Source: a virus. From it: a stretch of 64,000 nt of DNA. The stretch lies in IMG/VR virus record IMGVR_UViG_3300000101_000006, positions 1 through 64,000 of that record. One strand, given 5' to 3'. The translations under genes and the position numbers were made by a program. This document shows, piece by piece, positions 997-20,268 of the stretch (position 1 is the stretch's first letter; each line of letters opens with the position of its first letter). Below the pieces are notes generated by a model. It was not told where the DNA came from, ran no database searches, and saw only the letters and a list, made by a program, of their open reading frames with translations.

Positions 997-1221
997 ATGA
1001 AATACAATGTAGGAGACTTGGTGGTTCGTCGATGGAAAGGCAACATCCTCTGGGAAATGGTCGGCATCATCACACACATTCAAGAGCACCATTGGGGCAT
1101 TGAGTGGGATAGTCACACCATCCAGTGGACAAACCCCGAGCAGAACATTGGTGGTCAAGGTTGGAGACTCGGTGAGTTCGAACTCATAGAGGATGTGGAC
1201 AAAAAATGTCCGACAAAGTAA
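997..1221 (+). CDS. Small SH3-like hypothetical protein (74 aa)
   Basis: It begins MKYNVGDLVVRRWKGN and has a second hydrophobic strand 'MVGIITHI', so it is a clear member of the repeated GDLV family. GGAG lies seven bases upstream of the ATG. The C-terminal residues VDKKCPTK are encoded by the GGACA-N5-TGTCC palindrome that belongs to the following promoter cassette, so regulatory DNA and coding end coincide. Confidence 0.7.
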   Translation: MKYNVGDLVVRRWKGNILWEMVGIITHIQEHHWGIEWDSHTIQWTNPEQNIGGQGWRLGEFELIEDVDKKCPTK

Positions 1222-1260
1222 CAAATAAAACTTGACAACTCATTCCAAACGAGTTACCTT
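1197..1260 (+). promoter_or_regulatory. Promoter cassette with upstream palindrome
   Basis: The palindrome GGACA-AAAAA-TGTCC (1197-1211) is followed after 20 bp by TTGACA (1232-1237), 17 bp and TACCTT (1255-1260). It drives the zinc-knuckle gene at 1296. Confidence 0.75.
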
Positions 1261-1295
1261 ATCTAAACAACAACCATCCAACAAACGGAGAACAC

Positions 1296-2240
1296 ATGAA
1301 AATATATGACAACAGAAACAAGAAAAGAGAAATACAATGTAACTATTGCTATGGCGAGGGACACAACAAGCGCAATTGTCCCACGATGAAAGCACATTGG
1401 GAAGCAAACAAGCATCTAGACCCCAAGACAATGGTCGGTGACGACCTTGTAGGTGTAGACACCACCATGTTCCCAAAATACTACCAAACCTATTGGGGCG
1501 ATGAAAGTGCCCATCGTCAGTATTTCACCCACCTTACCTACATGACTAAGCGTTTCGCTCCAAAGGACGAGACCAAGACAAAGAAACGCAAGAAAGTTTC
1601 CTGTGGTTTCTGTGGCTCAAAAGCCCACACCCGACGCAATTGTAAGAAGATGAAGAACTTTGTTTACGTTCTCAACGAGACCAACAAAGCATTTCGTTCT
1701 GAATACTACGACAGGTACATCGAGGGCATGGGACTAGGTGCTGGTGCTTTGGTAGAGCAACGAACAGTCCAATATTCCAGTGATGGCGAGACAACCGTTT
1801 GCATCGTAACGGAGTTTCCAACAGAGTCCATCATGTTTACGAACACATTGTACAGATGGTCTGACTATCACACCACCCACCGAATTACTACCCTACCCAA
1901 CGGAACAATTCACAAGATAGACGCAACGCAAGGGTTCTTCTTTGACGAACATGACTATCATCATGGGAGCAACTACGACAGAAACCTTAGGCTCTACGGA
2001 CACTTTGACCACATGCACTCAGGCTACGGACAGATCCTAAAGATTATCTCACCCGCACCTAACAGACCATCCAAAGAATGGTTCATGGGTCAATCGCCTT
2101 GCTTTGACTTCATAGTCAAAAAGCGAAAGATCGAACAACTCATGGCTGACCTAGGTCGCATCATCAAGAAGTTCTACCCACACGACAATTTACGATCCAA
2201 ACTAGGAGCAAAAATCTATGACCAATACTGGACTGACTAA
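1296..2240 (+). CDS. Double zinc-knuckle (CCHC) protein, copy 1
   Basis: This 314-residue protein carries two CX2CX4HX4C zinc knuckles: C15-C18-H23-C28 and C103-C106-H111-C116, the second in a very basic stretch. Such knuckles typically bind single-stranded RNA or DNA, as in retroviral nucleocapsids; they are uncommon in phages. It is paralogous to the gene at 7719: both share the knuckle spacing, a 'SxFYDxx...GxGAL' segment and a C-terminal 'DF(I/V)(V/I)KKR' motif. A likely role is RNA or ssDNA binding in early infection (inference). It has its own promoter. Its 3' end overlaps the next gene by 23 bases. Confidence 0.8.
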   Translation: MKIYDNRNKKREIQCNYCYGEGHNKRNCPTMKAHWEANKHLDPKTMVGDDLVGVDTTMFPKYYQTYWGDESAHRQYFTHLTYMTKRFAPKDETKTKKRKKVSCGFCGSKAHTRRNCKKMKNFVYVLNETNKAFRSEYYDRYIEGMGLGAGALVEQRTVQYSSDGETTVCIVTEFPTESIMFTNTLYRWSDYHTTHRITTLPNGTIHKIDATQGFFFDEHDYHHGSNYDRNLRLYGHFDHMHSGYGQILKIISPAPNRPSKEWFMGQSPCFDFIVKKRKIEQLMADLGRIIKKFYPHDNLRSKLGAKIYDQYWTD

Positions 2241-2475
2241 TTACGCAATAGGCGACCTCATCGTTCGACCTTGTTCCACAACAGGGACGAGCGTTGGGAT
2301 CATTCGACTTATCGACCACACCTGTTCGACACCTTATTTTGTTGAGTGGCTAACTGGCTACATGCAAGGCTACACCCATGCGATTGCCCGATGCCATGTT
2401 GACGAGTGGACAAAAACTGTCCGACAAAGTAACATAAAAAACTTGACAACTCATTCCAAACGAGTTACCTTATAA
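2218..2475 (+). CDS. SH3-like hypothetical protein with an end that reads through a promoter
   Basis: MTNTGLTNYAIGDLIVRPC contains the GDL(I/V) motif and a later 'VGIIRLI' strand. Unlike its relatives, which stop just after the palindrome, the frame runs through the palindrome, the TTGACA box and the -10 region of the next promoter before stopping. The last 25 or so residues are therefore translated regulatory sequence, perhaps after a small indel. Overlaps the end of the zinc-knuckle gene. Confidence 0.6.
   Translation: MTNTGLTNYAIGDLIVRPCSTTGTSVGIIRLIDHTCSTPYFVEWLTGYMQGYTHAIARCHVDEWTKTVRQSNIKNLTTHSKRVTL
2408..2471 (+). promoter_or_regulatory. Promoter cassette with upstream palindrome
   Basis: GGACA-AAAAC-TGTCC (2408-2422), 20 bp, TTGACA (2443-2448), 17 bp, TACCTT (2466-2471). 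It lies wholly inside the 3' end of the preceding gene and drives the operon from 2503. Confidence 0.75.
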
Positions 2476-2502
2476 ACACTAACCACAAGACATGGAGACA
2501 AC

Positions 2503-2772
2503 ATGCAAGTTTACGTCGGACAATTTAAATACATTCACGAGGGAGAGGTAGAAGTGTTCCTAGCCACAACCGAGGACAAGATAAGGGAACTACTAACACA
2601 ACACATGCTAGTCTATATCGACTGGACTGACGACTTTGTGCTACCACCACAACAAAACTACAATGACCTAACCCAAATAGGCTACAACAACGAATGGTTC
2701 GAGGTCACCTACGACACACAACACGTCCATTCAGATGGACACATTCTCAAGCACGTCATGGAGACAATATGA
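2503..2772 (+). CDS. Hypothetical protein (89 aa)
   Basis: First gene of a seven-gene operon, preceded by the standard leader ATGGAGACAAC. The sequence is acidic and rich in aromatic residues (MQVYVGQFKYIHEGEVEVFL) and lacks the GDLV start. The next gene's ATG overlaps its stop as ATGA. No family recognised. Confidence 0.65.
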   Translation: MQVYVGQFKYIHEGEVEVFLATTEDKIRELLTQHMLVYIDWTDDFVLPPQQNYNDLTQIGYNNEWFEVTYDTQHVHSDGHILKHVMETI

Positions 2773-2945
2773 TAGAAGTCGGAGACCTTGTGAGAATAAA
2801 AGAGACACCCAGTCAGCACATCTTAACAAAATATATCGGCAAACTGGCTATCGTCGTCGTCAAAGGCACGTGGAGCAGAGACGTTCACATTATAGACACT
2901 GGGAACAAACCACGCATCCACCTTGATAACTTGGAGAAATTATGA
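2769..2945 (+). CDS. Small SH3-like hypothetical protein (58 aa)
   Basis: It starts MIEVGDLVRIKETPS with a following 'LAIVVVKG' strand. I chose the internal ATG because it overlaps the previous stop and begins exactly at the family motif; an upstream start would add 25 out-of-family residues. The next gene starts inside its stop codon. Function unknown. Confidence 0.7.
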   Translation: MIEVGDLVRIKETPSQHILTKYIGKLAIVVVKGTWSRDVHIIDTGNKPRIHLDNLEKL

Positions 2946-3124
2946 TAGAAGTCGGAGAACTTGTAAGGATAATAGATGGTGGATGGAACGGACACCTTGC
3001 TCTTGTAGTGTTCAAACCCTACGACAATGTAGCAAGAGTAAAGATTCTTGACCCACTAGCCATTTCCACATACCAACCAAACGGCTATGTAGCCTACAAC
3101 ATCGACTCATTGGAGAAACTATGA
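2942..3124 (+). CDS. Small SH3-like hypothetical protein (60 aa)
   Basis: MIEVGELVRIIDGGWNGHLA, then 'LVVFKPYDN' and a C-terminal 'YNIDSLEKL' that matches the 'HLDNLEKL' end of the preceding gene. These two are a recent tandem duplicate pair. Both edges show four-base overlaps with the neighbours. Confidence 0.7.
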   Translation: MIEVGELVRIIDGGWNGHLALVVFKPYDNVARVKILDPLAISTYQPNGYVAYNIDSLEKL

Positions 3125-3282
3125 TACAAGTCGGAGACCTTGTAAAGAGCATGAACACTGGACACGTAGGCATTGTCGTAGGCATGGATAGCAGTGCAAA
3201 ACACGACTATTGGTTTGTTATGATGCACGACAAAACCTACTCAATTCACAAAAGAAGATTAACAAAACTGGAGACAAAATGA
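3121..3282 (+). CDS. Small SH3-like hypothetical protein (53 aa)
   Basis: MIQVGDLVKSMNTGHVGIVV has the full GDLV-loop-GIV signature. It follows two similar genes with four-base overlaps, continuing the tandem array, and ends 'RRLTKLETK', where the last codons also form the GGAGA ribosome binding site of the next gene. Confidence 0.7.
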   Translation: MIQVGDLVKSMNTGHVGIVVGMDSSAKHDYWFVMMHDKTYSIHKRRLTKLETK

Positions 3283-3485
3283 GCAACCAAATAAAACTAA
3301 CATTCGACATCAGCGACGAACTACTCGATAAACTCTTAACCGTTATGGCTATCACAAGCCAACAGAACGCCCTACAAGGGGCTATGCCTATGCTTATGGG
3401 TGCGATGGGTGGTAAGACACCCCCACCCCCACCAAAGGGCGAGGAAAAGCCATCTATGGGCTTTAAAATGGATGATAAGAAATGA
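3279..3485 (+). CDS. Small hypothetical protein with Met/Gly-rich and poly-Pro segments (68 aa)
   Basis: Start chosen at the ATG overlapping the previous stop. The N-terminal half (IKLTFDISDELLDKLLTVMA) looks like an amphipathic helix. A methionine-rich 'GAMPMLMGAMGG' stretch and a PPPPPKGEEK linker follow. The poly-Pro/acidic end suggests a flexible tail. Operon partner of the tiny lipoprotein gene that overlaps its stop. Function unknown. Confidence 0.65.
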   Translation: MSNQIKLTFDISDELLDKLLTVMAITSQQNALQGAMPMLMGAMGGKTPPPPPKGEEKPSMGFKMDDKK

Positions 3486-3643
3486 TCCTACTACTACTCG
3501 CCTGTGTGACCCCTAAACACATAGGCACGATAGACATTATGGATGGTGGTCTTTGCACTGTTGAGTTTGGAGACCATTTCCACATCTATGACGTTTCCGT
3601 TTGTAACGGACGAGAAGAAGGCGAGACAATAAAAGTTAAGTAA
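3482..3643 (+). CDS. Tiny putative lipoprotein (53 aa)
   Basis: MILLLLACVTP is a minimal hydrophobic leader with a lipobox-like LLAC at residue 8, leaving a mature chain of about 46 residues. The leader is unusually short for signal peptidase II. Coupled by ATGA overlap to the preceding poly-Pro gene; it ends the operon. Possibly a membrane-anchored accessory protein. A spanin-like role cannot be claimed without lysis neighbours. Confidence 0.6.
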   Translation: MILLLLACVTPKHIGTIDIMDGGLCTVEFGDHFHIYDVSVCNGREEGETIKVK

Positions 3644-3648
3644 AATAC

Positions 3649-3676
3649 TTGACAAACTTTTCAAACGTGTTATCTT
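3649..3676 (+). promoter_or_regulatory. sigma70-type promoter
   Basis: TTGACA, 16 bp, TATCTT, followed by the ATGGAGACATC leader of the gene at 3708. No GGWCA palindrome at the usual position. Confidence 0.65.
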
Positions 3677-3707
3677 ATAAACATCAACAACGAAACATGG
3701 AGACATC

Positions 3708-4106
3708 ATGTTACATAGAGGTTCATTCATCGCAAGGATACCGAACGATGAGAAAGCACAATCAATCATCAATGCCCTTAAGGCTCAACATGGTCAACTA
3801 CGACTACATGGTAGACACAAAGACCGTAAAGGTGCTATGAAAGCCATTGGTCGCACTTTAAACACTCATGGAGACCTACCTTGGTGGCTAGGCACAGAGA
3901 TCATGATCTATCGTGGAGAAGATGGGATGACCTTTAAGCAATTTCAGTCGGTTGGACTGGGAGACCTTGTCAAATCGTCGGCTCTCTACCCAAAGCAACA
4001 TGGCATCGGCATCGTTGTTGACAAAAGGGGCAAAAACAAACTCAAAGTAGCCATGAATGGCTCGACAAAATGGACTACGAGAAATAAACTTATCCTTTTT
4101 ACTTGA
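3708..4106 (+). CDS. Two-part hypothetical protein with C-terminal SH3-like domain (132 aa)
   Basis: The N-terminal part (residues 1-80) is basic with repeated R/K/H. The C-terminal part contains 'VGLGDLVKSSALYPKQHGIG', matching the GDLV-GIV signature seen alone elsewhere, so this looks like a fusion of a family member to another domain. Single-gene operon between two promoters. Function unknown. Confidence 0.7.
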   Translation: MLHRGSFIARIPNDEKAQSIINALKAQHGQLRLHGRHKDRKGAMKAIGRTLNTHGDLPWWLGTEIMIYRGEDGMTFKQFQSVGLGDLVKSSALYPKQHGIGIVVDKRGKNKLKVAMNGSTKWTTRNKLILFT

Positions 4107-4131
4107 CAAACAATTCACAACAGGTTACATT
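4103..4131 (+). promoter_or_regulatory. sigma70-type promoter
   Basis: TTGACA, 17 bp, TACATT. The -35 box overlaps the stop region of the previous gene. No palindrome seen upstream. Confidence 0.65.
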
Positions 4132-4161
4132 ATAGTATAACCACAAAACATGGAGAGAAAA

Positions 4162-4377
4162 ATGAACTTTCATATCGGAGACCTTGTAAAGATAGAACAA
4201 GGACAAGGCAAAAACGACATAGGCATAGTCCTAGACTATCGCTCCACAGGTCGCTTTTACCCATCAACCGAACTAACCATCAAACTGTCTTGTGGTAGAA
4301 CAATCAGAAAAGACTACAAAACAGTCGAGAAACTCGGAGACAACAATGACCAAGAAACGACAGAAGAAAAAAAATAA
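4162..4377 (+). CDS. Small SH3-like hypothetical protein (71 aa)
   Basis: MNFHIGDLVKIEQGQGKNDI followed by 'GIVLDYRS'. The ATG twelve bases upstream (in ATGGAGAG) is the ribosome binding site region shared with other leaders, so the internal ATG is preferred. The C-terminus is acidic and overlaps the next gene by about 30 bases. Confidence 0.7.
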   Translation: MNFHIGDLVKIEQGQGKNDIGIVLDYRSTGRFYPSTELTIKLSCGRTIRKDYKTVEKLGDNNDQETTEEKK

Positions 4378-4510
4378 GAAGAAAGGACTACCAAAGGAGC
4401 GCAACTGGCTTGCAGTCCATGCTCACAACCGAAAGGGTGGAGCACATGTAGACCGTAAGAAACAAGACAACAAGAGCAAGTGTCGTGGTCGACACAAGGA
4501 TAGCGAATGA
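4346..4510 (+). CDS. Very basic small hypothetical protein (54 aa)
   Basis: It starts MTKKRQKKKNKKKGLPKERN and is Lys/Arg-rich throughout, with AVHAHNRKGGAH in the middle. GGAGA lies five bases upstream of the chosen ATG. Highly basic short proteins of this sort are common in phages and may bind nucleic acid or the ribosome; nothing more specific can be said. It is in an overlapping operon with its neighbours. Confidence 0.6.
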   Translation: MTKKRQKKKNKKKGLPKERNWLAVHAHNRKGGAHVDRKKQDNKSKCRGRHKDSE

Positions 4511-4707
4511 CTAACGGAACACTATTGAGAGCCAAGAATGGGAGCACCAAGCCATTCATCATCATCAACAAAACCAAGATCAACAGGCATTTGGCTGACT
4601 TCATGATCGAAATAGATGGTTATAAAGTCGCTAGATGCGACAGGATAAACCATCCATTCATCGTAGACGAAGAAGATTTCCACGCAAGGTTCGAGGTGGT
4701 AGCATGA
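4507..4707 (+). CDS. Small hypothetical protein (66 aa)
   Basis: MTNGTLLRAKNGSTKPFIII resembles the family in having a 'GTLL' start and alternating hydrophobic strands, but the GDLV motif is degraded. Overlaps both neighbours by four bases. Function unknown. Confidence 0.6.
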   Translation: MTNGTLLRAKNGSTKPFIIINKTKINRHLADFMIEIDGYKVARCDRINHPFIVDEEDFHARFEVVA

Positions 4708-4934
4708 GCAACCATAATCCATTCTCGATAGGCGACCTTGTCTCCCACCACGATGGTAGGGGTGTGGGCATGGTGATGGGCATGCGTGAGGACACATCGT
4801 CCCTAACGATGGGAAAGTGCATCAAGATAAAGATCAAGTGGTTCGAGACACCATACCCCTCCAACAGTCAGTGGTACTTCCCCGCATTTTTGCGACACTC
4901 AACCAAAACGGACAATTTCTGTCCGACAAAGTAA
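4704..4934 (+). CDS. Small SH3-like hypothetical protein (76 aa)
   Basis: The product includes 'FSIGDLVSHHDGRGVGMVMG', a clear family signature. The start is the ATG overlapping the previous stop. The C-terminus KTDNFCPTK is encoded by the palindrome of the next cassette, as in the gene at 997. Confidence 0.65.
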   Translation: MSNHNPFSIGDLVSHHDGRGVGMVMGMREDTSSLTMGKCIKIKIKWFETPYPSNSQWYFPAFLRHSTKTDNFCPTK

Positions 4935-4973
4935 AATAAAAAACTTGACAAAGCATTCACAACAGGTTACATT
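4910..4973 (+). promoter_or_regulatory. Promoter cassette with upstream palindrome
   Basis: GGACA-ATTTC-TGTCC (4910-4924), 20 bp, TTGACA (4945-4950), 17 bp, TACATT (4968-4973); drives the genes from 5003. Confidence 0.75.
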
Positions 4974-5002
4974 ACAGTATAACCACAAAACATGGAGACA
5001 AC

Positions 5003-5164
5003 ATGGACAAAACAACACTCAAACTAAACACAGACGACTTTAGGCAACTTGCATGTGAAATTGTAGGCGAACTGGAATGTGCGATGCTCATCCATGACGA
5101 CGATTTCGAACGAGCAGTAGGCAAGGTGATTATCGCACTCACTAGTTTCTTAGACAATCAATAA
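5003..5164 (+). CDS. Small acidic hypothetical protein (53 aa)
   Basis: MDKTTLKLNTDDFRQLACEI is followed by a helical acidic segment; no GDLV motif. It directly follows the ATGGAGACAAC leader of a promoter cassette. Predicted mostly alpha-helical by eye. Function unknown. Confidence 0.6.
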   Translation: MDKTTLKLNTDDFRQLACEIVGELECAMLIHDDDFERAVGKVIIALTSFLDNQ

Positions 5165-5199
5165 CATAACCAACAACACACCCACCACATGGAGAAACC

Positions 5200-5535
5200 A
5201 TGAACAATCGAACTTGCATCCATTGCGAAGATACTTTCAACCTACACTCACAACTCAAGCAACGTGTCGGTGGTCGCATCAACGAATGTCCCGACTGTGT
5301 TGTCGAATTACAAACAGAGATCAAAGAGACCATTCGAGCCGTTTCCAGTGGGGATGGTAAGATGGCTTGCATCCAAATCCTCAAGTTTAACAACGAGGAT
5401 GATGCTGACCTTTATCGCAAGGGTTGGGATCAATGGTCGGGTTGGAACAACCAACGCAGTGGCTCAGTCCACGACGTAGCCTTTACGAAGATAGGCGAGA
5501 ACAGTGGGAACGGAAACCACAAGGGGAAAGCATGA
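5200..5535 (+). CDS. Zinc-ribbon hypothetical protein (111 aa)
   Basis: The N-terminus has a four-cysteine zinc site (C6xxC9 and C30xxC33), followed by a helix with 'ELQTEIKETIRAV'. Small zinc ribbons in phage early genes often act as nucleic-acid or transcription adaptors; that is inference here. It is preceded by its own GGAGA site, and the next gene overlaps its stop. Confidence 0.65.
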   Translation: MNNRTCIHCEDTFNLHSQLKQRVGGRINECPDCVVELQTEIKETIRAVSSGDGKMACIQILKFNNEDDADLYRKGWDQWSGWNNQRSGSVHDVAFTKIGENSGNGNHKGKA

Positions 5536-5693
5536 AAGTAGGCGACTTAGTAAGACACCCATTGTCGGGCGACATTGGGATCATCACAGATACCACAGAT
5601 GAATCTTCTTCATCGGATAATACGTATTATTCTGTAGCCTTTCCCGATGGTGGCGAGTTTTTGATACCACAAGAGCACTTGGAGTTGTTATGA
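5532..5693 (+). CDS. Small SH3-like hypothetical protein (53 aa)
   Basis: MKVGDLVRHPLSGDIGIITD has the full signature; a 'PQEHLELL' end matches other family C-termini. I chose the ATG at the stop overlap. It opens a run of three coupled family members. Confidence 0.7.
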   Translation: MKVGDLVRHPLSGDIGIITDTTDESSSSDNTYYSVAFPDGGEFLIPQEHLELL

Positions 5694-5932
5694 TAGAGAT
5701 AGGAACATTGGTTAGACTGAAGTTTAAGTCAGTCAGATACTCACAATATGACCTTAGATCCGAAAAGATAGAGCGTGATGAAGATAAGCCTGTTGGAATG
5801 GTGATTGGTCGTGGTTACAAGGGAATGAATGGCGACCTCATAGTGAAATGGATCAAGGGCAATGCCGAGATTGGACACCCGACTGGTTCTATCGCCTACT
5901 TTGATAAGTATAGTGTGGAGAAGATAGCATGA
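5690..5932 (+). CDS. Small SH3-like hypothetical protein (80 aa)
   Basis: MIEIGTLVRLKFKSVRYSQY with a longer loop than its relatives and the second strand 'VGMVIGRGYKG'. The C-terminal 'YFDKYSVEKIA' parallels the 'LEKL' ends elsewhere. Four-base overlaps with both neighbours. Confidence 0.7.
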   Translation: MIEIGTLVRLKFKSVRYSQYDLRSEKIERDEDKPVGMVIGRGYKGMNGDLIVKWIKGNAEIGHPTGSIAYFDKYSVEKIA

Positions 5933-6132
5933 TAGAGATAGGAACATTGGTAAGAATAAACGACGAGGGCTATTACAACGTAGACATGGTTGGGGTAAGC
6001 ATCGGAGACTTTGGTATCGTCGTAGAGTCCTATGTAGAGGTCGGTGAACCCGATAAACTCTACGACATTCTTGTGTCGGGGTGTACCCTAGTGCCCTACC
6101 TACTCCCCCATGAGTTCGACGTTGTAGCGTAA
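5929..6132 (+). CDS. Small SH3-like hypothetical protein (67 aa)
   Basis: MIEIGTLVRINDEGYYNVDM then 'GDFGIVVESY': another tandem copy, nearly identical to the preceding gene over the first nine residues. Ends the operon just before a promoter cassette. Confidence 0.7.
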   Translation: MIEIGTLVRINDEGYYNVDMVGVSIGDFGIVVESYVEVGEPDKLYDILVSGCTLVPYLLPHEFDVVA

Positions 6133-6133
6133 C

Positions 6134-6176
6134 GGACATTTTTTGTCCTTGACTTTTTCTCTCACCTTGTTACATT
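6134..6176 (+). promoter_or_regulatory. Promoter cassette, palindrome abutting the -35 box
   Basis: GGACA-TTTTT-TGTCC (6134-6148) is followed with no gap by TTGACT (6149-6154), 16 bp and TACATT (6171-6176). This is the short-phase arrangement, in contrast to the 20-bp form. Confidence 0.7.
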
Positions 6177-6206
6177 ACTAACACAACAACGAAACATGGA
6201 GACAAC

Positions 6207-6407
6207 ATGAACCATCCTAAAGGTGGCGAGTTATGGAGACACAAGTCAACTGGTGACCATTACATTGTGAAGTCCACTTACCCGATATGGACGCACGATG
6301 GTAAAGGCAATGCGATTTGGGTCGTCAAGACCATAAGGTTGCGAGACCAATACGAGATAGAAGAACCATTAGGAATGTTCCGATGGGAATGGGAACGGAT
6401 AAACTAG
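6207..6407 (+). CDS. Small hypothetical protein (66 aa)
   Basis: MNHPKGGELWRHKSTGDHYI recalls the short 'G(E/D)LYRH...YxV' pattern of small beta-rich phage proteins (DUF1653-like, weak). The ATGGAGACAAC leader precedes the ATG. Probably a divergent relative of the SH3-like set. Confidence 0.65.
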   Translation: MNHPKGGELWRHKSTGDHYIVKSTYPIWTHDGKGNAIWVVKTIRLRDQYEIEEPLGMFRWEWERIN

Positions 6408-6415
6408 GAGAAATT

Positions 6416-6652
6416 ATGTTACACTATGGAAACCAAGCACCACAGGTCGGTGACCTTTATGTAAGCGAGACACAGGGGAGACTACACATCCTTGTCTCTT
6501 ACGAGTTTGTCTACAAAGACAGGGTTGACTTCTACAGATACTACAAAAGCAAACTTAAACGACTCGATGATGGGGCGATAACCAGTTGGACTAAACCACA
6601 ACATGAGTTCTACAGGAAGTATAAGCCCCTACAACCCGACCCCCAAGCCTAA
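6416..6652 (+). CDS. Small SH3-like hypothetical protein (78 aa)
   Basis: Start at ATG after TAGGAGAAATT. It contains 'PQVGDLYVSETQGRLHILVS', a variant of the family motif. C-terminus rich in Lys/Pro. Second gene of the operon that starts at 6207. Confidence 0.65.
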   Translation: MLHYGNQAPQVGDLYVSETQGRLHILVSYEFVYKDRVDFYRYYKSKLKRLDDGAITSWTKPQHEFYRKYKPLQPDPQA

Positions 6653-6654
6653 AC

Positions 6655-6718
6655 GGACATAATCTGTCCGTTAAAGTAACATAAAAAACTTGACAAAGCA
6701 TTCACAACAGGTTACATT
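6655..6718 (+). promoter_or_regulatory. Promoter cassette with upstream palindrome
   Basis: GGACA-TAATC-TGTCC (6655-6669), 20 bp, TTGACA (6690-6695), 17 bp, TACATT (6713-6718). Confidence 0.75.
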
Positions 6719-6747
6719 ACAGTATAACCACAAAACATGGAGACATG

Positions 6748-6999
6748 ATGACTAAGAAAAAACTAACGAAGAAACAAAAGCAACAAATGCTTTACAACGC
6801 AACGATGATAGCCGAAGGTGCGATGGATGAGACAAGCGAAATGTCCTACATCCAAGCATGGCAACACCTTGTGGACACTGGTGTCGTTTGGGAACTCCAA
6901 GGGTTCTTTGGACGAGCAGCACATCGGATGCTTTCAGAGGGCACACTACAACCAGCACCTGTCGAGGATGAAACCCCGAACAACGAGGATGAACAATGA
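6748..6999 (+). CDS. Hypothetical protein with basic N-terminus and helical body (83 aa)
   Basis: Two adjacent ATGs occur; the second gives the four-base GGAGA-to-ATG spacing seen in the other leaders. The sequence is MTKKKLTKKQKQQMLYNATM followed by helices and an acidic tail (VEDETPNNEDEQ). The basic head and acidic tail suggest a nucleic-acid or protein adaptor. First gene of a five-gene coupled operon. Confidence 0.65.
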   Translation: MTKKKLTKKQKQQMLYNATMIAEGAMDETSEMSYIQAWQHLVDTGVVWELQGFFGRAAHRMLSEGTLQPAPVEDETPNNEDEQ

Positions 7000-7163
7000 A
7001 AGTCGGAGACTTGATAACCCACGCTAGAGAACTACACATAGTGATCGAGATAAAACATTCTACCCCAGTCGCTAGAGTGGGCTTAGAAGAATTGGTGCTG
7101 AAAAACACAAAGACACTAGAAACACGAACCATCCCCATGAAATGGATAAGGAGCCTCAAATGA
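6996..7163 (+). CDS. Small SH3-like hypothetical protein (55 aa)
   Basis: MKVGDLITHARELHIVIEIK carries the GDL motif; the second strand is 'IVIEI' rather than GIV. ATGA overlaps on both sides. Confidence 0.65.
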   Translation: MKVGDLITHARELHIVIEIKHSTPVARVGLEELVLKNTKTLETRTIPMKWIRSLK

Positions 7164-7318
7164 AAATCGGAGACCTTGTAAAAGTAGCAAGCGAAAACAA
7201 CGACTATTACGGAGAGATCGGCATCATAACCAAACGGTTGAATAACTTTTTTATCTTTGCAATGATACCGAGTGGCGAGTTTATCTTCACCCCCGAGTCA
7301 TTGGAGGTGATAGGATGA
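7160..7318 (+). CDS. Small SH3-like hypothetical protein (52 aa)
   Basis: MKIGDLVKVASENNDYYGEI then 'GIITKRL'; it ends 'PESLEVIG'. Member of the coupled array. Function unknown. Confidence 0.7.
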   Translation: MKIGDLVKVASENNDYYGEIGIITKRLNNFFIFAMIPSGEFIFTPESLEVIG

Positions 7319-7470
7319 GCATCGGAGACATCGTAACAGTCCGAAACTTCCCAAGCCAATACATCATCTGTAAGGTTCATACGGACGTATGGAGCAGATA
7401 CGACATTATCGACCTTGAAACTGGTTACTTGCACCGTTGCATTGGTGGTGGCCAACTGGAGACAACGTGA
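7315..7470 (+). CDS. Small SH3-like hypothetical protein (51 aa)
   Basis: MSIGDIVTVRNFPSQYIICK, with 'DVWSRYDIIDLETG' close to 'GTWSRDVHIIDTG' of the gene at 2769. The two are paralogues in different operons. The last codons form the GGAGA site for the next gene. Confidence 0.7.
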   Translation: MSIGDIVTVRNFPSQYIICKVHTDVWSRYDIIDLETGYLHRCIGGGQLETT

Positions 7471-7664
7471 ACATCGGAGACCTTGTAACGGATGAATGGG
7501 GCAACTTGGCTATCATTATCGCACAAGTCGGTGTTGTAGACCGTTGGGTCATTCACTACATCAAAAGTGGAGATAAGTCAGCCCTGTTCGCCTCGAAACT
7601 TTATCCCATTCGGTCAAAAAATGACCGACAAAGTAAAAGAAAAAACTTGACAAACAATTCATAA
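7467..7664 (+). CDS. Small SH3-like hypothetical protein, GTG start (65 aa)
   Basis: The GTG overlapping the previous stop gives VNIGDLVTDEWGNLAIII, in line with the family; an in-frame upstream ATG would add ten unrelated residues. The frame runs through the downstream palindrome and part of the next promoter before stopping. Confidence 0.65.
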   Translation: MNIGDLVTDEWGNLAIIIAQVGVVDRWVIHYIKSGDKSALFASKLYPIRSKNDRQSKRKNLTNNS

Positions 7665-7718: not shown

Positions 7719-8669
7719 ATGCGAATATACAACGACAAACAAAACAACACATCAAGCAAGGCAAAGCAATCGTGCTCTTATTGTCGTGACGAAAGTCACA
7801 AGGTAGGCGACTGTCCCCACATTGCAGGCGACTGGGCTATGTTCCAAAAGTTGACTATCCCATCATCAGACCCCGAGAACTGGACTAACAGTCCATTGAC
7901 GCAGACAGGTCGTAGACGATGGAACACACAACCTTGGACGGCATCCTACTACAAAGACCCAACTGGTTGGTCAAAGTGGTATGCTGAGTGTGAGAAAGCC
8001 CATGAAAAGCAACAGAGAGCAATAGCCCGACAGAAGAACAAGAAACAAGGCAAGAAGAAAGCATCCAAGTGTGGGTTCTGTGGTTCACTAGACCACAACC
8101 GACGCAACTGTGCTAAAATGCAAGCGTTTCGTGAGAAAGCGATCAAGGCAAACCGTAACTGGCGACAGTCTTTCTATGATGATCTCGTCACCAAGCATGG
8201 TATCAGCGAGGGTGCTTTGTTGACCGTTAAGAAAGATGAGTGGTCAGCGAGAAATACTCGCACAGAAGTCACTGGAACAGCGATAGTCACAGGCATCAAC
8301 TGGGATGAACTACACAGTGGTTGCGACTTGAACTTCAAGAACCCCAATGCCCAGTCATGGCGAACAGACTTGGACTACACCCTACAACAATTTCCAAGAC
8401 TCAAAGTGGTTATTGATGGTCAGCCAAGCGTCATTGCATTGGGTAGCGAAATGAAAATGCCTACCATTTCTTCGCGTCATTCTTCGGGTTCTTACAACTG
8501 GTCGATCAAGTCAGTCCTATCTCAGTCAAAGACCCCCAAAGGTCAAGAGTGGATTGATCAAGGTCATGCTGACGCAGTGGACTTTGTTATCAAAAAGCGT
8601 TCTCTCGAATGGCTCACCGACAAGGGCTATGTAGGACTTATCGAAAAGTGGTCAAAAATTGACCGTTAA
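7719..8669 (+). CDS. Double zinc-knuckle (CCHC) protein, copy 2
   Basis: This 316-residue paralogue of the gene at 1296 has knuckles C19-C22-H27-C32 and C118-C121-H126-C131, again with a Lys-rich stretch just before the second. The middle is Trp-rich (WAMFQK, NWTNSP, RRRWNT). The C-terminal 'DFVIKKRSLEWL' matches 'DFIVKKRKIEQL' of copy 1. It is likely a nucleic-acid-binding early protein; the target is unknown. The last two sense codons lie in the next palindrome. Confidence 0.8.
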   Translation: MRIYNDKQNNTSSKAKQSCSYCRDESHKVGDCPHIAGDWAMFQKLTIPSSDPENWTNSPLTQTGRRRWNTQPWTASYYKDPTGWSKWYAECEKAHEKQQRAIARQKNKKQGKKKASKCGFCGSLDHNRRNCAKMQAFREKAIKANRNWRQSFYDDLVTKHGISEGALLTVKKDEWSARNTRTEVTGTAIVTGINWDELHSGCDLNFKNPNAQSWRTDLDYTLQQFPRLKVVIDGQPSVIALGSEMKMPTISSRHSSGSYNWSIKSVLSQSKTPKGQEWIDQGHADAVDFVIKKRSLEWLTDKGYVGLIEKWSKIDR

Positions 8670-8744: not shown

Positions 8745-9083
8745 ATGGAATACTCAGAAGAAAAAGCAGTGATTACCGCATTTATGAACCAAACCAAGGC
8801 TCAGTCTCGGACTTTAAAAACAGATGGGCAATCCCTATTCTCATTCGAGAAACTAAGGATAGCCGAACACATCCCACACCAAGAGGGTGGTGCTACGACC
8901 CTAGTGTACGACTACACCTATGGTGGAGGGGCATATGTATCCTCGGCTACGAGCAACCATGTGCGACTTACAAAAAAACAAGTACCAAAACCAAACTGGG
9001 TCTCGGTACTTGATGCGAGAGAAGTTGGGCTTGTTCCCTTGGTCACCGAGAGATACCATCATGGTTCACCTCGTAACTCATAA
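8745..9083 (+). CDS. Hypothetical protein (112 aa)
   Basis: Start chosen after AGGAGAAAAA. MEYSEEKAVITAFMNQTKAQ is a helical head; the body has a Gly/Tyr-rich beta segment (YDYTYGGGAYVSS). No family recognised. Overlaps the next gene by about 20 bases. Confidence 0.65.
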   Translation: MEYSEEKAVITAFMNQTKAQSRTLKTDGQSLFSFEKLRIAEHIPHQEGGATTLVYDYTYGGGAYVSSATSNHVRLTKKQVPKPNWVSVLDAREVGLVPLVTERYHHGSPRNS

Positions 9084-9243: not shown

Positions 9244-9493
9244 CAATTGGAACATCATCATGAAAACGGCTCAAGAACTAGCCCAAGAGTATCACAAAGA
9301 GGGGTGGACAGGCGACTGTAACGACTTCACGCAAGCATCTTCATCGGTCTCACAGGAACTCACAAACCTAGAAGTCGAGAGACTATGGGACGAGTTTAAG
9401 GGCGAAGAACTTATCTCAGACAACGTGACCTTTACATTCACTCGACAGGGTCGAGACAAAGTGATTACAATCGAACAAACGGACAATAATTGA
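9236..9493 (+). CDS. Small hypothetical protein (85 aa)
   Basis: MDNNWNIIMKTAQELAQEYH; a second possible start is the Met nine residues in. Helical N-terminus and a basic/beta C-terminus 'VTFTFTRQGRDKVITIE'. Its last codons (TDNN) overlap the palindrome of the following cassette. Confidence 0.6.
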   Translation: MDNNWNIIMKTAQELAQEYHKEGWTGDCNDFTQASSSVSQELTNLEVERLWDEFKGEELISDNVTFTFTRQGRDKVITIEQTDNN

Positions 9494-9544
9494 CCGATAA
9501 AGTAGCAAATAAAACTTGACAAGTTAGTCCAAACGTATTACATT
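9481..9544 (+). promoter_or_regulatory. Promoter cassette with mixed palindrome
   Basis: GGACA-ATAAT-TGACC (9481-9495) has one arm of each variant. It is followed after 20 bp by TTGACA (9516-9521), 17 bp, TACATT (9539-9544). It drives the VWA/metallopeptidase gene. Confidence 0.75.
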
Positions 9545-11195: not shown

Positions 11196-11251
11196 TTTGT
11201 CCGAGAAAGTAAAAGAAAAAACTTGACAAACAACTCCAAACGCATTACCTT
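11188..11251 (+). promoter_or_regulatory. Promoter cassette with upstream palindrome
   Basis: GGACA-TAATT-TGTCC (11188-11202), 20 bp, TTGACA (11223-11228), 17 bp, TACCTT (11246-11251). Confidence 0.75.
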
Positions 11252-11661: not shown

Positions 11662-11724
11662 GGACATTTTCTGTCCGAGAAAGTAATAAAAAAACTTGAC
11701 AAGTTAATCCAAACGTATTACATT
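11662..11724 (+). promoter_or_regulatory. Promoter cassette with upstream palindrome
   Basis: GGACA-TTTTC-TGTCC (11662-11676), 19 bp, TTGACA (11696-11701), 17 bp, TACATT (11719-11724). Its former gene is reduced to a five-codon frame (see 11771). Confidence 0.7.
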
Positions 11725-13019: not shown

Positions 13020-13205
13020 ATGAACTATCAGGTTGGAGACCTTGTCTCACACTCAAAGATGGGTGGCATCGCCATCATCACAGGCATAGCAGTCGATGGT
13101 GACGACCCAGTCTATCGCACCAAATGGCTTGTAGCCCCCATCAATAACTATGAACCCATCTCAGCCCCACAACGATACCTAACCCCCATACAGGAGCGCA
13201 CATGA
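13020..13205 (+). CDS. Small SH3-like hypothetical protein (61 aa)
   Basis: MNYQVGDLVSHSKMGGIAII, clear family signature, preceded by AGGAGCGCAC. The same AGGAGCGCACATG start context recurs at the next gene, indicating duplication of gene plus leader. It may be transcribed from the AAA+ promoter. Confidence 0.7.
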   Translation: MNYQVGDLVSHSKMGGIAIITGIAVDGDDPVYRTKWLVAPINNYEPISAPQRYLTPIQERT

Positions 13206-13393: not shown

Positions 13394-13551
13394 ACACACT
13401 ACACTTACTTATCGCATGCGACCTAGGCTTTGCCCTATTCGTTTGGTGGACTTATCGAGACCACAACCGAAAGATGGATGCGCTCTACAAGAAATACGAT
13501 AAAGACTATTCCGACAGAGACGAGAGGATAGACGGAACGGACAAAAACTGA
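13390..13551 (+). CDS. Small single-pass membrane protein (53 aa)
   Basis: MNTLHLLIACDLGFALFVWW is one transmembrane segment, followed by a charged tail (KKYDKDYSDRDERID). The start overlaps the previous stop. Last residues GTDKN lie in the next palindrome. Probably an inner-membrane accessory protein. Confidence 0.6.
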   Translation: MNTLHLLIACDLGFALFVWWTYRDHNRKMDALYKKYDKDYSDRDERIDGTDKN

Positions 13552-13602
13552 CCGTTAAAGTAACAGAAATAATTTGACAACTCAGCCCAAACGTATTACA
13601 TT
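13539..13602 (+). promoter_or_regulatory. Promoter cassette with mixed palindrome
   Basis: GGACA-AAAAC-TGACC (13539-13553), 20 bp, TTGACA (13574-13579), 17 bp, TACATT (13597-13602). Confidence 0.75.
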
Positions 13603-14001: not shown

Positions 14002-14044
14002 GGACATTTTTTGACCTTGACTTTTCTTCTCACCTTGTTACATT
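14002..14044 (+). promoter_or_regulatory. Promoter cassette, mixed palindrome abutting the -35 box
   Basis: GGACA-TTTTT-TGACC (14002-14016), then TTGACT with no gap (14017-14022), 16 bp, TACATT (14039-14044). Confidence 0.7.
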
Positions 14045-14446: not shown

Positions 14447-14489
14447 GGACATTTTCTGTCCTTGACTTTTCTGACCAACGAGATACATT
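14447..14489 (+). promoter_or_regulatory. Promoter cassette, palindrome abutting the -35 box
   Basis: GGACA-TTTTC-TGTCC (14447-14461), TTGACT with no gap (14462-14467), 16 bp, TACATT (14484-14489). Confidence 0.7.
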
Positions 14490-14729: not shown

Positions 14730-14793
14730 GGTCATTTTCTGTCCGAGAAAGCAACAGAAAAAACTTGACAGATGAAACCAAACGTGATACATT
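14730..14793 (+). promoter_or_regulatory. Promoter cassette with mixed palindrome
   Basis: GGTCA-TTTTC-TGTCC (14730-14744), 20 bp, TTGACA (14765-14770), 17 bp, TACATT (14788-14793). Confidence 0.75.
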
Positions 14794-15452: not shown

Positions 15453-15496
15453 GGACAGTTTTTGTCCTTGACAAAGTGTCTTGGCCTTGTTACACT
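15453..15496 (+). promoter_or_regulatory. Promoter cassette, palindrome abutting the -35 box
   Basis: GGACA-GTTTT-TGTCC (15453-15467), TTGACA with no gap (15468-15473), 17 bp, TACACT (15491-15496). Confidence 0.7.
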
Positions 15497-15526: not shown

Positions 15527-15733
15527 ATGAACATCAAACAAGTTAAAACCCTTAAAGTAGGCGACGTAGTCCGTTGCCTTTGGAACCACCCATCAGGCAA
15601 AACAATCGACAAAGTCGAGACCGTGACCGTTGCTTGGGGCGTTGATGTTGCTATGGGTGTTCCAAGCGCAACGTTAGAGACTTTGTATATCACCCCTTAT
15701 AACCACAAACACTTCACCATCGTATCCCAATAA
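15527..15733 (+). CDS. Small SH3-like hypothetical protein (68 aa)
   Basis: MNIKQVKTLKVGDVVRCLWN has the family motif a few residues in. ATGGAGACAAC leader. Starts a run of closely spaced genes through 16.7 kb. Confidence 0.65.
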   Translation: MNIKQVKTLKVGDVVRCLWNHPSGKTIDKVETVTVAWGVDVAMGVPSATLETLYITPYNHKHFTIVSQ

Positions 15734-15745
15734 CTCGGAGACAAC

Positions 15746-15943
15746 ATGGACATCTATAAAACCCCCAAAGGAACCTTGTTCCGTTTGTTCGACCAAACCT
15801 TGATCACCACAAGCGAGTATTACTATTGCCCACACCACAAGATCCACAAGGTCAAGGCACACAACATCACAAAGGGCATCGACAAGGAAATCGGAGAGAT
15901 CGCAATGCTCGATGCACACCCAATGAAACAGGAGACAAAATGA
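15746..15943 (+). CDS. Small hypothetical protein (65 aa)
   Basis: MDIYKTPKGTLFRLFDQTLI, with a Cys/His-containing middle (YYYCPHHKIHKVKAHN) that might hold a metal. CGGAGACAAC lies just before the ATG. The last codons supply GGAGA for the next gene. Confidence 0.6.
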   Translation: MDIYKTPKGTLFRLFDQTLITTSEYYYCPHHKIHKVKAHNITKGIDKEIGEIAMLDAHPMKQETK

Positions 15944-16224
15944 ACCAAGAAGAAATTATACAAGACGCTTTCGACCAACTGTTGCATGAACAACGAGTGT
16001 CCAACAAAGGCTCCATTGAGACCATAAAGCACAGAGACAACTCGGTTGAGTGCAACCTGTCGAACGGATGGATGGTCGAACGCATTCACTTCACATCTTA
16101 TTCCACAGGGTTGCCCATCGTTGCTAGCACATCCGTTTGTCTCTACGACAACAAAGGCGAGTTAGTGAGAGAGACAGTCTTTACCCACGAAAACAAGGAA
16201 ACCCCATGCAAGCACTCACATTGA
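15940..16224 (+). CDS. Hypothetical protein (94 aa)
   Basis: MNQEEIIQDAFDQLLHEQRV is helical, then a beta-rich part 'VECNLSNGWMVERIHF'. The ATG overlapping the preceding stop was chosen. Overlaps the next membrane gene by 19 bases. No family recognised. Confidence 0.6.
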   Translation: MNQEEIIQDAFDQLLHEQRVSNKGSIETIKHRDNSVECNLSNGWMVERIHFTSYSTGLPIVASTSVCLYDNKGELVRETVFTHENKETPCKHSH

Positions 16225-16361
16225 TTATCGTTAACCTCATGGCTATGGCGATTTACATTCCCTATTTACTGGACAAGGAGCGAAAGTATGACAACCAAAC
16301 CGACACTACATCCAAGCCCATTCGCACTGGACATATTCATCACCCCACCACATCCCAATAG
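16206..16361 (+). CDS. Small single-pass membrane protein (51 aa)
   Basis: MQALTLIIVNLMAMAIYIPY is one hydrophobic segment followed by a polar tail. AAGGAAACCCC lies upstream. Its second half overlaps the next gene in another frame by 74 bases, so the tail is the less constrained part. Confidence 0.55.
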   Translation: MQALTLIIVNLMAMAIYIPYLLDKERKYDNQTDTTSKPIRTGHIHHPTTSQ

Positions 16362-16446
16362 CCGAGTTGCCCGAGACCATAAAAAAAATAAAGTTAAACC
16401 ATCGAAAGTAACGACACCAAAAGAGAATACAAAGGATAAGAAATGA
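16288..16446 (+). CDS. Pro/Lys-rich small protein, overlapping gene (52 aa)
   Basis: AAGGAGCGAAAGT precedes the ATG, and the stop overlaps the next ATG (ATGA). MTTKPTLHPSPFALDIFITP goes on to a Lys-rich disordered end. The strong ribosome binding site and the coupling argue for a real gene nested partly in the previous one. Confidence 0.6.
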   Translation: MTTKPTLHPSPFALDIFITPPHPNSRVARDHKKNKVKPSKVTTPKENTKDKK

Positions 16447-16718
16447 ATATATCAAACAACTCACCAAAGCAATACGATACAGTATACCACGTAGAATACG
16501 GTAAAGGAACAATAGTAACAATCCAGTATAGAAAGGATGGAGGTTTAGCAATGTGCTACTTCCCCAAAGCAAAGGAGCATGATTGGATAACAATCCAACA
16601 GTTGTGTGTAGGTACAGGAGATATAACAATGCAACCTTTACCAACGAATAGTAATGAGAAAGTATCGGATGATCTTCAGAGCGCGTTAGAGAACCTTTTC
16701 TCGATGCCTAAGAGGTAG
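16443..16718 (+). CDS. SH3-like hypothetical protein (91 aa)
   Basis: It contains 'YHVEYGKGTIVTIQYRKDGG', a KOW/SH3-like strand-turn pattern, and a C-terminal helix 'DDLQSALENLFSMPKR' like those that end some phage early proteins. Last gene of the run. Codons are more AT-rich than in its neighbours. Confidence 0.65.
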   Translation: MNISNNSPKQYDTVYHVEYGKGTIVTIQYRKDGGLAMCYFPKAKEHDWITIQQLCVGTGDITMQPLPTNSNEKVSDDLQSALENLFSMPKR

Positions 16719-16755
16719 GACAAAAAAGACATTTGGTTTTATCCCTCAGAATGGT

Positions 16756-16911
16756 ATGAGTATTGAGTTGTACAAGAACTCCCAGTGTATAGGTGAATGT
16801 GCGAAAGAGTGGCTAGAATGGAGTGTATCAGACCCATTTTTAAGGCACAACAAGGCACATACAACGCATCCTAGCACATACACCCATACCATTACGGCCC
16901 CAAACACCTAG
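16756..16911 (+). CDS. Possible small protein (51 aa)
   Basis: An ATG frame, MSIELYKNSQCIGECAKEWL, stays open for 51 codons, and the same frame is open for about 25 codons upstream, so it might be an extension of the preceding gene by a frameshift. No clear ribosome binding site. The second half is low-complexity His/Thr-rich. Weak support. Confidence 0.3.
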   Translation: MSIELYKNSQCIGECAKEWLEWSVSDPFLRHNKAHTTHPSTYTHTITAPNT

Positions 16912-17029
16912 GCGAACGTACAGACCCATCCTTGCCCCTCCTAGACCCTATCCCTTTTCCCCTACACTCTACCCACCTACCCTACTACCCTACCCCCCGA
17001 CAACCCCACCACTACCGAGAGAATAGCAC
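16912..17029 (+). other. C-rich, G-poor pyrimidine tract
   Basis: From about 16920 to 17015 the + strand is dominated by C and T in short CCC-A/T repeats (CCCTACCC, CCTACTACCC) with very few G. It separates the short-gene run from the gene at 17030. No coding frame is credible here. Confidence 0.6.
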
Positions 17030-17203
17030 ATGACCCCACAAATAGGCACATTATTCACACACAAGTTCATAGACATGGGCTTGTTCATCGTTGTCTACCA
17101 CTCAGACAAACGACTAGGGCTTAAGTCCATAGACACAGGTAAGACACGCTACATAGACCACAGGCATCTGTCTAGCCAATACAAGCCCCTTACACACGAG
17201 TAG
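17030..17203 (+). CDS. Small SH3-like hypothetical protein (57 aa)
   Basis: MTPQIGTLFTHKFIDMGLFI with 'VVYHSDKRLGLKSID': IGTL start and strand pattern as in the family. It stands alone after the C-rich tract; only a weak GAGAG precedes the start, and no promoter is evident. Confidence 0.55.
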   Translation: MTPQIGTLFTHKFIDMGLFIVVYHSDKRLGLKSIDTGKTRYIDHRHLSSQYKPLTHE

Positions 17204-18101: not shown

Positions 18102-18165
18102 GGACAGAAAATGTCCGTTCAACTAACACTTTTCATTTGACAACTCATCCATAACAGATTACATT
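18102..18165 (+). promoter_or_regulatory. Promoter cassette with upstream palindrome
   Basis: GGACA-GAAAA-TGTCC (18102-18116), 20 bp, TTGACA (18137-18142), 17 bp, TACATT (18160-18165). Confidence 0.75.
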
Positions 18166-18215: not shown

Positions 18216-18875
18216 ATGACTTATAAAACTTCAACCCTTAACAACTTCGTTGGAACTTCCGAGCCTACTTTCGTAGGTAACACTCAAATTGATGGTTACA
18301 TCAATGATCGCCCTGTCGTCTTGCGTCGCCTTAAGAATGGTACAGTGATGCCCTGCGTAGGTACTACCCTGCCTACCTCGATGGGTATGGGACGTGTTCG
18401 TGGTACTATGGACGGCAATCTTCTTGTAGACATCGTGTCTTTCAATGGAGCCTATATGTGGGAAAATGCCGATGGTAGCGACATCTTCGATGCCGAAGAA
18501 AAAGTCGCAATGCTTAACGGATGTCTTCGACGTTCGCTAGACTCCATCATCGCAGACTACACTAGAGTCCACAAGTCCGAGATTACGGGCAAGTTAAGCC
18601 CTAGTCGTCAAGAAAAGTTAGATGCCTACTTGCCCGAGATTACCGACCGTACCCTGTCTATGTCTTTCAGTCCTCGAGTAATTGGGATGAATACTCCAAT
18701 TATGTATGATGAAGTCAAGACTCCTAAGATGACCCCTGCTGAACGTCGTAAGCAACGAGCCTTAGAGGTTGCCGAGATCCAACGGATTGCTGATGCGATG
18801 TTAGAAGATGAGGTCGTACCGAGCGATGTCCAAGACGAGTTGGATGAAATGTTCGGTAATGATGGGGAGTTCTAA
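18216..18875 (+). CDS. Hypothetical protein (219 aa)
   Basis: MTYKTSTLNNFVGTSEPTFV; an N-terminal beta-rich half with repeated 'G(T)xx' turns ('VLRRLKNGTVMPCVGTTLPT') and a helical, Arg/Glu-rich C-terminal half ('PAERRKQRALEVAEIQRIAD'). Preceded by CAGGAGAGCAT. Monocistronic, ended by a terminator-like hairpin. No family recognised. Confidence 0.7.
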   Translation: MTYKTSTLNNFVGTSEPTFVGNTQIDGYINDRPVVLRRLKNGTVMPCVGTTLPTSMGMGRVRGTMDGNLLVDIVSFNGAYMWENADGSDIFDAEEKVAMLNGCLRRSLDSIIADYTRVHKSEITGKLSPSRQEKLDAYLPEITDRTLSMSFSPRVIGMNTPIMYDEVKTPKMTPAERRKQRALEVAEIQRIADAMLEDEVVPSDVQDELDEMFGNDGEF

Positions 18876-18999: not shown

Positions 19000-19062
19000 G
19001 GTCAGAAAGTGTCCGAAAAGAACGTCCTTTGGTTTGACAGGTAGGTCAAAACGTGATACATT
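19000..19062 (+). promoter_or_regulatory. Promoter cassette with mixed palindrome
   Basis: GGTCA-GAAAG-TGTCC (19000-19014), 19 bp, TTGACA (19034-19039), 17 bp, TACATT (19057-19062). Confidence 0.75.
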
Positions 19063-19084
19063 CTAGTATAACCAAGGAGTTCAA

Positions 19085-20113
19085 ATGACTAAACAATCTC
19101 TTCAAACTATCGCAATCATCGCAATCTATACAATCGCGATTGCCTACGTTATTCTGTGTACCTTTCAAACCATCGAGAATCTCGAACTCCTAGGAGCATC
19201 TATGCTAGCATTCAAACCATCTTTTTCTGTTGACTCACTTGTCTCAAAGTCTCGTAAGTATGGGGAGTCTAGCCACAATCGAAACTTTTGTGGTCTACAT
19301 ACCCCAATCTACCGAGTGATTAACTTTGCACAGGACTGGATCCTACAACACCGTATCGCTCGGGACTTTATGATGAATACCTCTAGAGGTCAGGCAAAGT
19401 GGATAGTTCAGAATGACGATGCTCTTTCAATCCAAATGGCATATGGCTACAGTACCGTAAAAATCGGTGCTCGCACAATCTTCGCAGTTGATGAGAACAC
19501 TCGTACCATCTATCACATCGACAGTACCGGGGTCCTACAGGTTACCGACTACTATCAAGACTACGATATGAGTGACGTCAACGCTCAAGTCCTCGAAGTT
19601 CTCGAGGTTATAGCAGATCACTACAATGCCGAGAAATACGAGGCTTTAGACAATGATGCAAAACAATATGATTGGCAGTTGATGTCCGATACTTGCGAGT
19701 TTACCGAGCGTACCGAGTGGAATAGAGCAACCGTAAAAGTATGGTGTCTTAACTTCTCTAAGACGTCGGTAGAATGGGAACGACAGTATGGTCGTATCAA
19801 TCGCAACGGCTCGGTATCATACAAGACTGAGAAAGGCGATTACCCTAAGGCATATAAGGTCGCTATTGGCGACGTCGTAGCGTGGGTTCCTCACTCTATA
19901 ATGTCGAGTCGCACGACGTTGCACGGTGGACGTGTAGTAATCCATAAAGGGGATGATAACTTTTTGGGATGTTACACACACGCTCAGCCAATCGACCTAC
20001 CTGTCTGGTGGCTCGAGAAAACCGTAGGTGTAGACTGGTCTGATAAGGTCGAGCCTATCGGACGTTCAGCATACATCAAGATGGTACAAAGAAAACGTCG
20101 TTGGAACCGATGA
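19085..20113 (+). CDS. Membrane-anchored hypothetical protein (342 aa)
   Basis: MTKQSLQTIAIIAIYTIAIA is a transmembrane anchor (residues 8-29). The rest is a soluble domain with Trp/Tyr-rich patches and no recognised motif. CAAGGAGTTCAA precedes the start. Monocistronic, followed by a strong hairpin. May act at the inner membrane during takeover (inference). Confidence 0.7.
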   Translation: MTKQSLQTIAIIAIYTIAIAYVILCTFQTIENLELLGASMLAFKPSFSVDSLVSKSRKYGESSHNRNFCGLHTPIYRVINFAQDWILQHRIARDFMMNTSRGQAKWIVQNDDALSIQMAYGYSTVKIGARTIFAVDENTRTIYHIDSTGVLQVTDYYQDYDMSDVNAQVLEVLEVIADHYNAEKYEALDNDAKQYDWQLMSDTCEFTERTEWNRATVKVWCLNFSKTSVEWERQYGRINRNGSVSYKTEKGDYPKAYKVAIGDVVAWVPHSIMSSRTTLHGGRVVIHKGDDNFLGCYTHAQPIDLPVWWLEKTVGVDWSDKVEPIGRSAYIKMVQRKRRWNR

Positions 20114-20130
20114 TGTAGAACATCCTATGA

Positions 20131-20154
20131 GGCCGGTAGCACCGGCCTTGTTCG
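20131..20154 (+). terminator. Strong hairpin after the membrane protein gene
   Basis: GGCCGGT-AGC-ACCGGCC, a seven-base perfect stem, followed by TTGTTC. Likely transcript end, with a weak T run. Confidence 0.5.
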
Positions 20155-20161
20155 AGGTCCC

Positions 20162-20180
20162 ACTTACTTTACATAACTAT
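20162..20180 (+). repeat. ACTTACTTTACATAACTAT repeat
   Basis: Second exact copy of the 19-base sequence, again directly downstream of a hairpin and upstream of a promoter cassette. Confidence 0.6.
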
Positions 20181-20204
20181 GGGGAGCGGATCCGCTTTGC
20201 AACC

Positions 20205-20268
20205 GGACATATTCTGTCCGTTAAAGTTACCCTATTTGTTTGACAGCTGTGTCTGAACGCGTTACATT
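20205..20268 (+). promoter_or_regulatory. Promoter cassette with upstream palindrome
   Basis: GGACA-TATTC-TGTCC (20205-20219), 20 bp, TTGACA (20240-20245), 17 bp, TACATT (20263-20268). Last copy of the cassette in the window. Confidence 0.75.

Follow-up and report, generated by a model that had tools for sequence, protein, structure and literature searches.

A helically phased palindrome upstream of early promoters in a marine myophage, a possible operator of a host WYL-domain activator

Introduction

At CRP-type class I/II promoters, the activator occupies one dimer site that is helically phased upstream of the -35 element, and the -35 element is weak in the proximal class. A different arrangement is the stoperators of mycobacteriophage L5, which are spread in many copies over the genome, are asymmetric and are repressive. 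Here we describe a palindrome, GGWCA-N5-TGWCC, that recurs at early promoters of the virus recorded as IMGVR_UViG_3300000101_000006 in IMG/VR (127,431 bases); the window below means positions 1 to 64,000 of this record.

Two other kinds of known system resemble this arrangement. The Caulobacter WYL-domain activator DriD has the consensus ATACGAC-N7-GTCGTAT, has a site upstream of driD itself and, through contacts with the beta subunit and an alpha carboxy-terminal domain of RNA polymerase, activates promoters whose -35 and -10 elements are poor (PMC12340889). The WYL regulators MXAN_1359/1360 of Myxococcus xanthus are damage-induced in a LexA-dependent manner (PMC12288472), while BrxR is a WYL protein acting as a repressor (PMC9122601). 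In T4-type phages, PeSL cassettes repeat a unit of an inverted repeat and an early promoter between small early genes (PMC4503421; PMC3950731). Our literature search on WYL domains, phage early genes and promoters found no paper that joins these subjects.

Results

The window holds 18 exact matches of GGWCA-N5-TGWCC, compared with a mean of 0.26 and a maximum of 2 in 100 dinucleotide shuffles, and a pattern scan placed all of them exactly where the initial annotation, made from the letters alone, had put them. All lie in the early region between 1.2 and 20.2 kb. The same annotation had stated that the palindrome is absent past 21 kb, and this was borne out: the other ~107 kb of the record gave no further exact match, and the later promoters inspected (27369, 36818, 37536, 38388, 47926, 83194, 84141, 85119, 88520 and 88830) are without it. 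At 18 of 18 sites the order on the plus strand is the palindrome, a sigma-70-type promoter (TTGACA/T-16/17-TACATT-like) and a gene start, in most cases with a GGAG-type ribosome site. These cassettes are situated between genes, commonly just past a stop codon, in a variable early region. On the other hand, the palindrome does not mark every early promoter, because at least six in the same region are without it (3649-3676 on the plus strand and those starting at 666, 943, 4103, 11823 and 17709).

The distance from the palindrome to the -35 element is quantised in the window. Twelve palindromes stand 20 bp before TTGACA, namely GGACAAAAAATGTCC at 1197-1211 (TTGACA at 1232; promoter for 1296-2240) and those at 2408-2422 (2443), 4910-4924 (4945), 6655-6669 (6690), 7612-7626 (7647), 8650-8664 (8685), 9481-9495 (9516; promoter for the metallopeptidase/vWA gene 9585-10820), 11188-11202 (11223), 13539-13553 (13574), 14730-14744 (14765), 18102-18116 (18137; promoter for 18216-18875) and 20205-20219 (20240; promoter for 20316-20750). 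Two are at 19 bp, 11662-11676 (TTGACA at 11696) and 19000-19014 (19034; promoter for 19085-20113), and four abut the -35 element directly at 0 bp: 6134-6148 (TTGACT at 6149, with a 16-bp spacer), 14002-14016 (TTGACT at 14017), 14447-14461 (TTGACT at 14462) and 15453-15467 (TTGACA at 15468), all on the plus strand like the others. The site has an extended form, CGGWCA-N5-TGWCCG, with the upstream C in 46 of 53 sites and the downstream G in 35 of 39.

Comparison of the first 20 kb with phage records by megablast returned no match. A pattern scan of viral contigs brought up the same cassettes in a phage of 184 kb, with 25 sites between 14 and 31 kb, and in contigs of 49 kb (8 sites between 0.4 and 10 kb) and 42 kb (6 between 39 and 42 kb); all of them have core genes in common with the window phage. 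The latter encodes a T4-like terminase, portal, prohead protease and tail tube, and a late-sigma-like (gp55-type) protein at 48731-49423 (PHROG 234). Searching with the early AAA and metallopeptidase/vWA proteins gathered 160 loci, and the site is present at high copy in many of them, up to 27 per locus and 29 per contig. In at least 15 related marine myophages the copies number 5-29 and lie in early clusters; other relatives have 0-3, including two near relatives with a single site each and no promoter behind it (G035 and G038). On the tree of the AAA protein, the site-bearing rows require three changes, and one site-free group (L144, L150 and L154) is nested among them. In the two of these that were read, L144 and L154, AT-rich UP-like tracts stand directly before TTGACA, in the place of the lost site.

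The geometry was determined in 16 phages with 251 sites, 227 of which were scorable with a clear -10 element. The distance from the site to the -10 element was 22-23 bp at 136 sites, 31-33 bp at 52, 42-43 bp at 27 and 53 bp at one, with 11 elsewhere, so that 216 of 227 are phased; the cassettes of any one phage are in part duplicates, and these counts are not of independent events. On the opposite strand a clear -10 element was present at only 19 of 251 sites, at scattered distances. Since the distance classes differ by one DNA turn, the site moves by whole turns: it ends 0, ~10, ~20 or, rarely, 30 bp before the -35 element, which places its centre at ~-43, -53, -63 or, rarely, ~-73 if the -10 element ends at -7. 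It was never found within the core promoter, and none overlaps the -10 element or the start site.

The -35 element decays with proximity. TTGACA is kept at 26 of 27 two-turn sites versus 3 of 136 abutting ones in the 16 phages; a Fisher test of the contrast on four phages gave 4e-8. The degenerate forms at abutting sites are TTGACT, TTTACA and TTGACG in G1, TCGACA in L148 and TGGACA in L156, and in L158 the abutting sites are followed by TACCC (TACCCA) with no -35 element at all, the distance to the -10 element being unchanged at 23 bp. A fixed helical phase and a weak -35 element beside the proximal site are the sequence marks of class I/II activators. The recurrence of the phased site in the early clusters of relatives gives good support to the proposal that most of the early region answers to a single shared regulator.

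No gene for such a regulator was obvious to the initial annotation, and our searches agree with it: the WYL search of the 16 site-bearing phage records gave no match, with positive controls detected, and no HTH (helix-turn-helix) family is among the Pfam matches listed for the early genes. The Pfam survey of the non-early genes covered at least 25 families. The protein of 18216-18875 was considered as an autoregulated regulator and rejected, its homolog being present only in G1 among the phage loci compared. Some early gene families occur in all five near-complete site-bearing phages and are rare in five site-free relatives, for example those of 8745-9083, 1296-2240 and 7719-8669, in a phyletic profile that is confounded by descent. 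The last two genes encode ~315-aa paralogs with two zinc-knuckle-like motifs each. The lipoprotein-like gene at 21035-22561, with HYDIN-type Ig domains and a vWA-like segment, has its family in 5/5 of the near-complete site-bearing phages and 0/5 of the site-free ones. In the relative L157, which is almost site-free, a 176-aa protein at 8878 on the plus strand has weak similarity (E=1e-3) to the WYL regulators described below.

The site also occurs in bacterial genomes. Related phage contigs were found in a few metagenome-assembled genomes (MAGs) by an early AAA protein search, and the Deltaproteobacteria MAG SP124, whose organism name NCBI puts in Myxococcota, has two such contigs with one phage-like site each. 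In 141 genomes of the phylum of SP124, CGGWCAWWWWNTGWCCG occurred at 18 distinct sites, those in SP124 itself not counted, versus 4 for reversed controls, whereas the 148 genomes of a control phylum showed no excess (~10 sites versus ~17 reversed controls). Two exact sites precede orthologous genes for HTH-WYL-WCX regulators, at distances of 34 and 55 bp, in the loci L428 (4399-5367) and L435 (4315-5316). The nearest solved relatives of these regulators are PafBC and other WYL proteins, including the DeoR-family entry 8tp8, which we take to be DriD. Of the 12 genomes with a site, 9 have a WYL ortholog at a threshold of E<=1e-40, versus 14 of the 128 others (p=3e-6). With a matrix made from the phage sites alone, 14 of the 23 WYL orthologs proved to have an upstream site at p<=0.01 (the combined value being 4e-20, among related genomes that are not independent).

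Two further sites precede ImuA-like genes (imuA-imuB) and five precede a conserved small open reading frame (ORF), for which there was no Pfam or PDB match. Most of the imuA and small-ORF sites are near GTTCAG/CTGAAC boxes, which resemble the Myxococcus LexA motif. In front of the small ORF, four of five promoters repeat the phage spacing, with 18-19 bp from the site to a -35-like hexamer and 41-42 bp to a -10-like one; at one imuA the site is 22 bp from a -10-like hexamer, as in the abutting phage class. The phage site and its spacing are therefore found, in one bacterial phylum, before damage-response and WYL regulator genes.

A few observations concern other genes and phages. The distant relative L243 has five sites at 15602-17115, two of them immediately before an ECF-sigma-like gene, and phages of a different kind (L023, L047, L056 and L074) have one GGACA-N5-TGTCC before the promoter of a YqaJ-like exonuclease gene. 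A motif M-x-x-GDLV...GIV is common to about a dozen tiny early proteins of the window (93-7664 and 13020-13205), which by appearance are SH3/tudor-like paralogs. The sequence MKLTKETLKRIIKEE / MKISKEKLIQIIKEE starts scattered proteins in the window (24512-24886 and 30445-30759) and in L006 (3782-4126, 6819-7130, 14493-14786 and 14857-15213); it may be a leader for capsid targeting that the prohead protease cleaves.

Discussion

The initial annotation had the palindrome guard its promoters. Its association with them is confirmed; the word suggests repression, but the geometry fits an activator. A phased site standing in for -35 and UP elements is what an upstream activator would need, and neither a repressor nor a terminator explains it. 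We therefore consider it very probable, judging from the arrangement of sequence elements, that the factor bound at the site activates. In the explanation we favour, C-GGWCA-N5-TGWCC-G would be the site of a dimeric transcription activator that aids host sigma-70-type RNA polymerase at early promoters, sitting upstream of the core promoter at ~-43, -53, -63 or, rarely, ~-73 on the same helix face. An abutting activator would replace the -35 contact partly or wholly, and one placed one or two turns away would add to a full TTGACA. This is similar to CRP class I/II promoters in the phased single dimer-type site and in the weak -35 element when proximal. It differs from them in that the phage site is not a CRP site and that the one-turn position (-53) is also used; no CRP-like protein was found.

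As for the binder, the occurrence of the same sequence before DNA-damage and WYL regulator genes in Myxococcota-like bacteria suggests that the phages may use a host damage sensor. The foremost candidate would be the host's own WYL-domain DNA-damage regulator (HTH-WYL-WCX, of the DriD/PafBC type), so that injected phage DNA would be transcribed with the help of the damage-response machinery of the host. The likeness to DriD is in the palindrome with a GAC-N7-GTC core, which is contained in GGWCA-N5-TGWCC, in the poor -35 promoters, in the HTH-WYL-WCX architecture of the bacterial regulators and in the operator before the regulator's own gene, the last being found in bacteria of one phylum, a candidate for that of the host. 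That a host WYL protein binds the site and drives phage early transcription is in our judgement evenly poised, and so is the explanation as a whole. A response to single-stranded DNA or damage during infection can be proposed only tentatively.

Several points weigh against this explanation. DriD binds over the -35 element, not upstream of it (PMC12340889), whereas the phage sites end 0, ~10 or ~20 bp before it, with centres at ~-43/-53/-63, and are used by phages. The link between phage and phylum consists of the two contigs with one site each in one MAG, together with cell-like lipoproteins in the phages; the SP124 MAG itself has no WYL ortholog at E<=1e-40; and the host loci have 64-70% G+C where measured, versus 41% in the phage. 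The WYL gene might be regulated through the site without its product being the binder, the role of the site in the host might be autorepressive, and the partial duplication of cassettes within a phage lowers the weight of the site counts.

The strongest rival is that the activator is a phage protein, either virion-borne or first made from the palindrome-less promoters, with a fold that was not recognised. Lytic phages that use the host polymerase often encode such factors, such as MotA of T4 and Ogr of P2. The promoters at 666, 943, 3649, 4103, 11823 and 17709 could produce it first, and the families tied to site-bearing phages, including the zinc-knuckle-like paralogs and 8745-9083, provide candidates. 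However, the profiles behind these candidates follow descent as well, the early genes show no HTH family among the Pfam matches listed, and the same operator at bacterial damage-response promoters would then need a separate explanation. We regard a phage-encoded activator as possible and less probable than the host WYL protein.

It is improbable that the site is a repressor operator shutting early genes off, in the manner of the L5 stoperators. The frequent repetition of a single operator, confined to early operons, would suit such a role, and some WYL proteins, BrxR among them, do repress. Nevertheless, the phage sites are palindromic and locked to a promoter, unlike stoperators; they leave the -10 element and the start site free; the -35 element decays beside abutting sites and is absent in L158; and site-free relatives have UP-like tracts at the same place. 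Finally, a stem-loop of a PeSL-like promoter-terminator cassette, ending upstream transcripts or serving gene shuffling, would match the intergenic position of the units in the variable early region, often just past a stop codon as for PeSLs (PMC4503421; PMC3950731), but it is very unlikely. The W bases at positions 3 and 13 complement each other in only 26 of 53 sites, so that an RNA hairpin is not conserved; the stem measures 5 bp, and in the 20-bp class no T-run follows it on the plus strand; and a terminator has no need of helical phasing.

Repeated phage operators and the use of host factors by phages are already known; what is new is the phasing of the array and its possible link to a damage regulator of the host. 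With distances of 0, 10, 20 and 30 bp, the sites provide a natural series of activator positions; they also predict an operator for a WYL regulator, so far unstudied, of Myxococcota-like bacteria. It remains speculative that lytic marine myophages, as a widespread group, have wired most of their early promoters to a host WYL activator that senses single-stranded DNA, with entry of phage DNA or host damage switching the early genes on. If the explanation is true, it would describe an early-transcription strategy by which abundant but uncultured marine phages turn a DNA-damage regulator of the host, from a family otherwise tied to DNA repair and phage defence, into an activator of their own.

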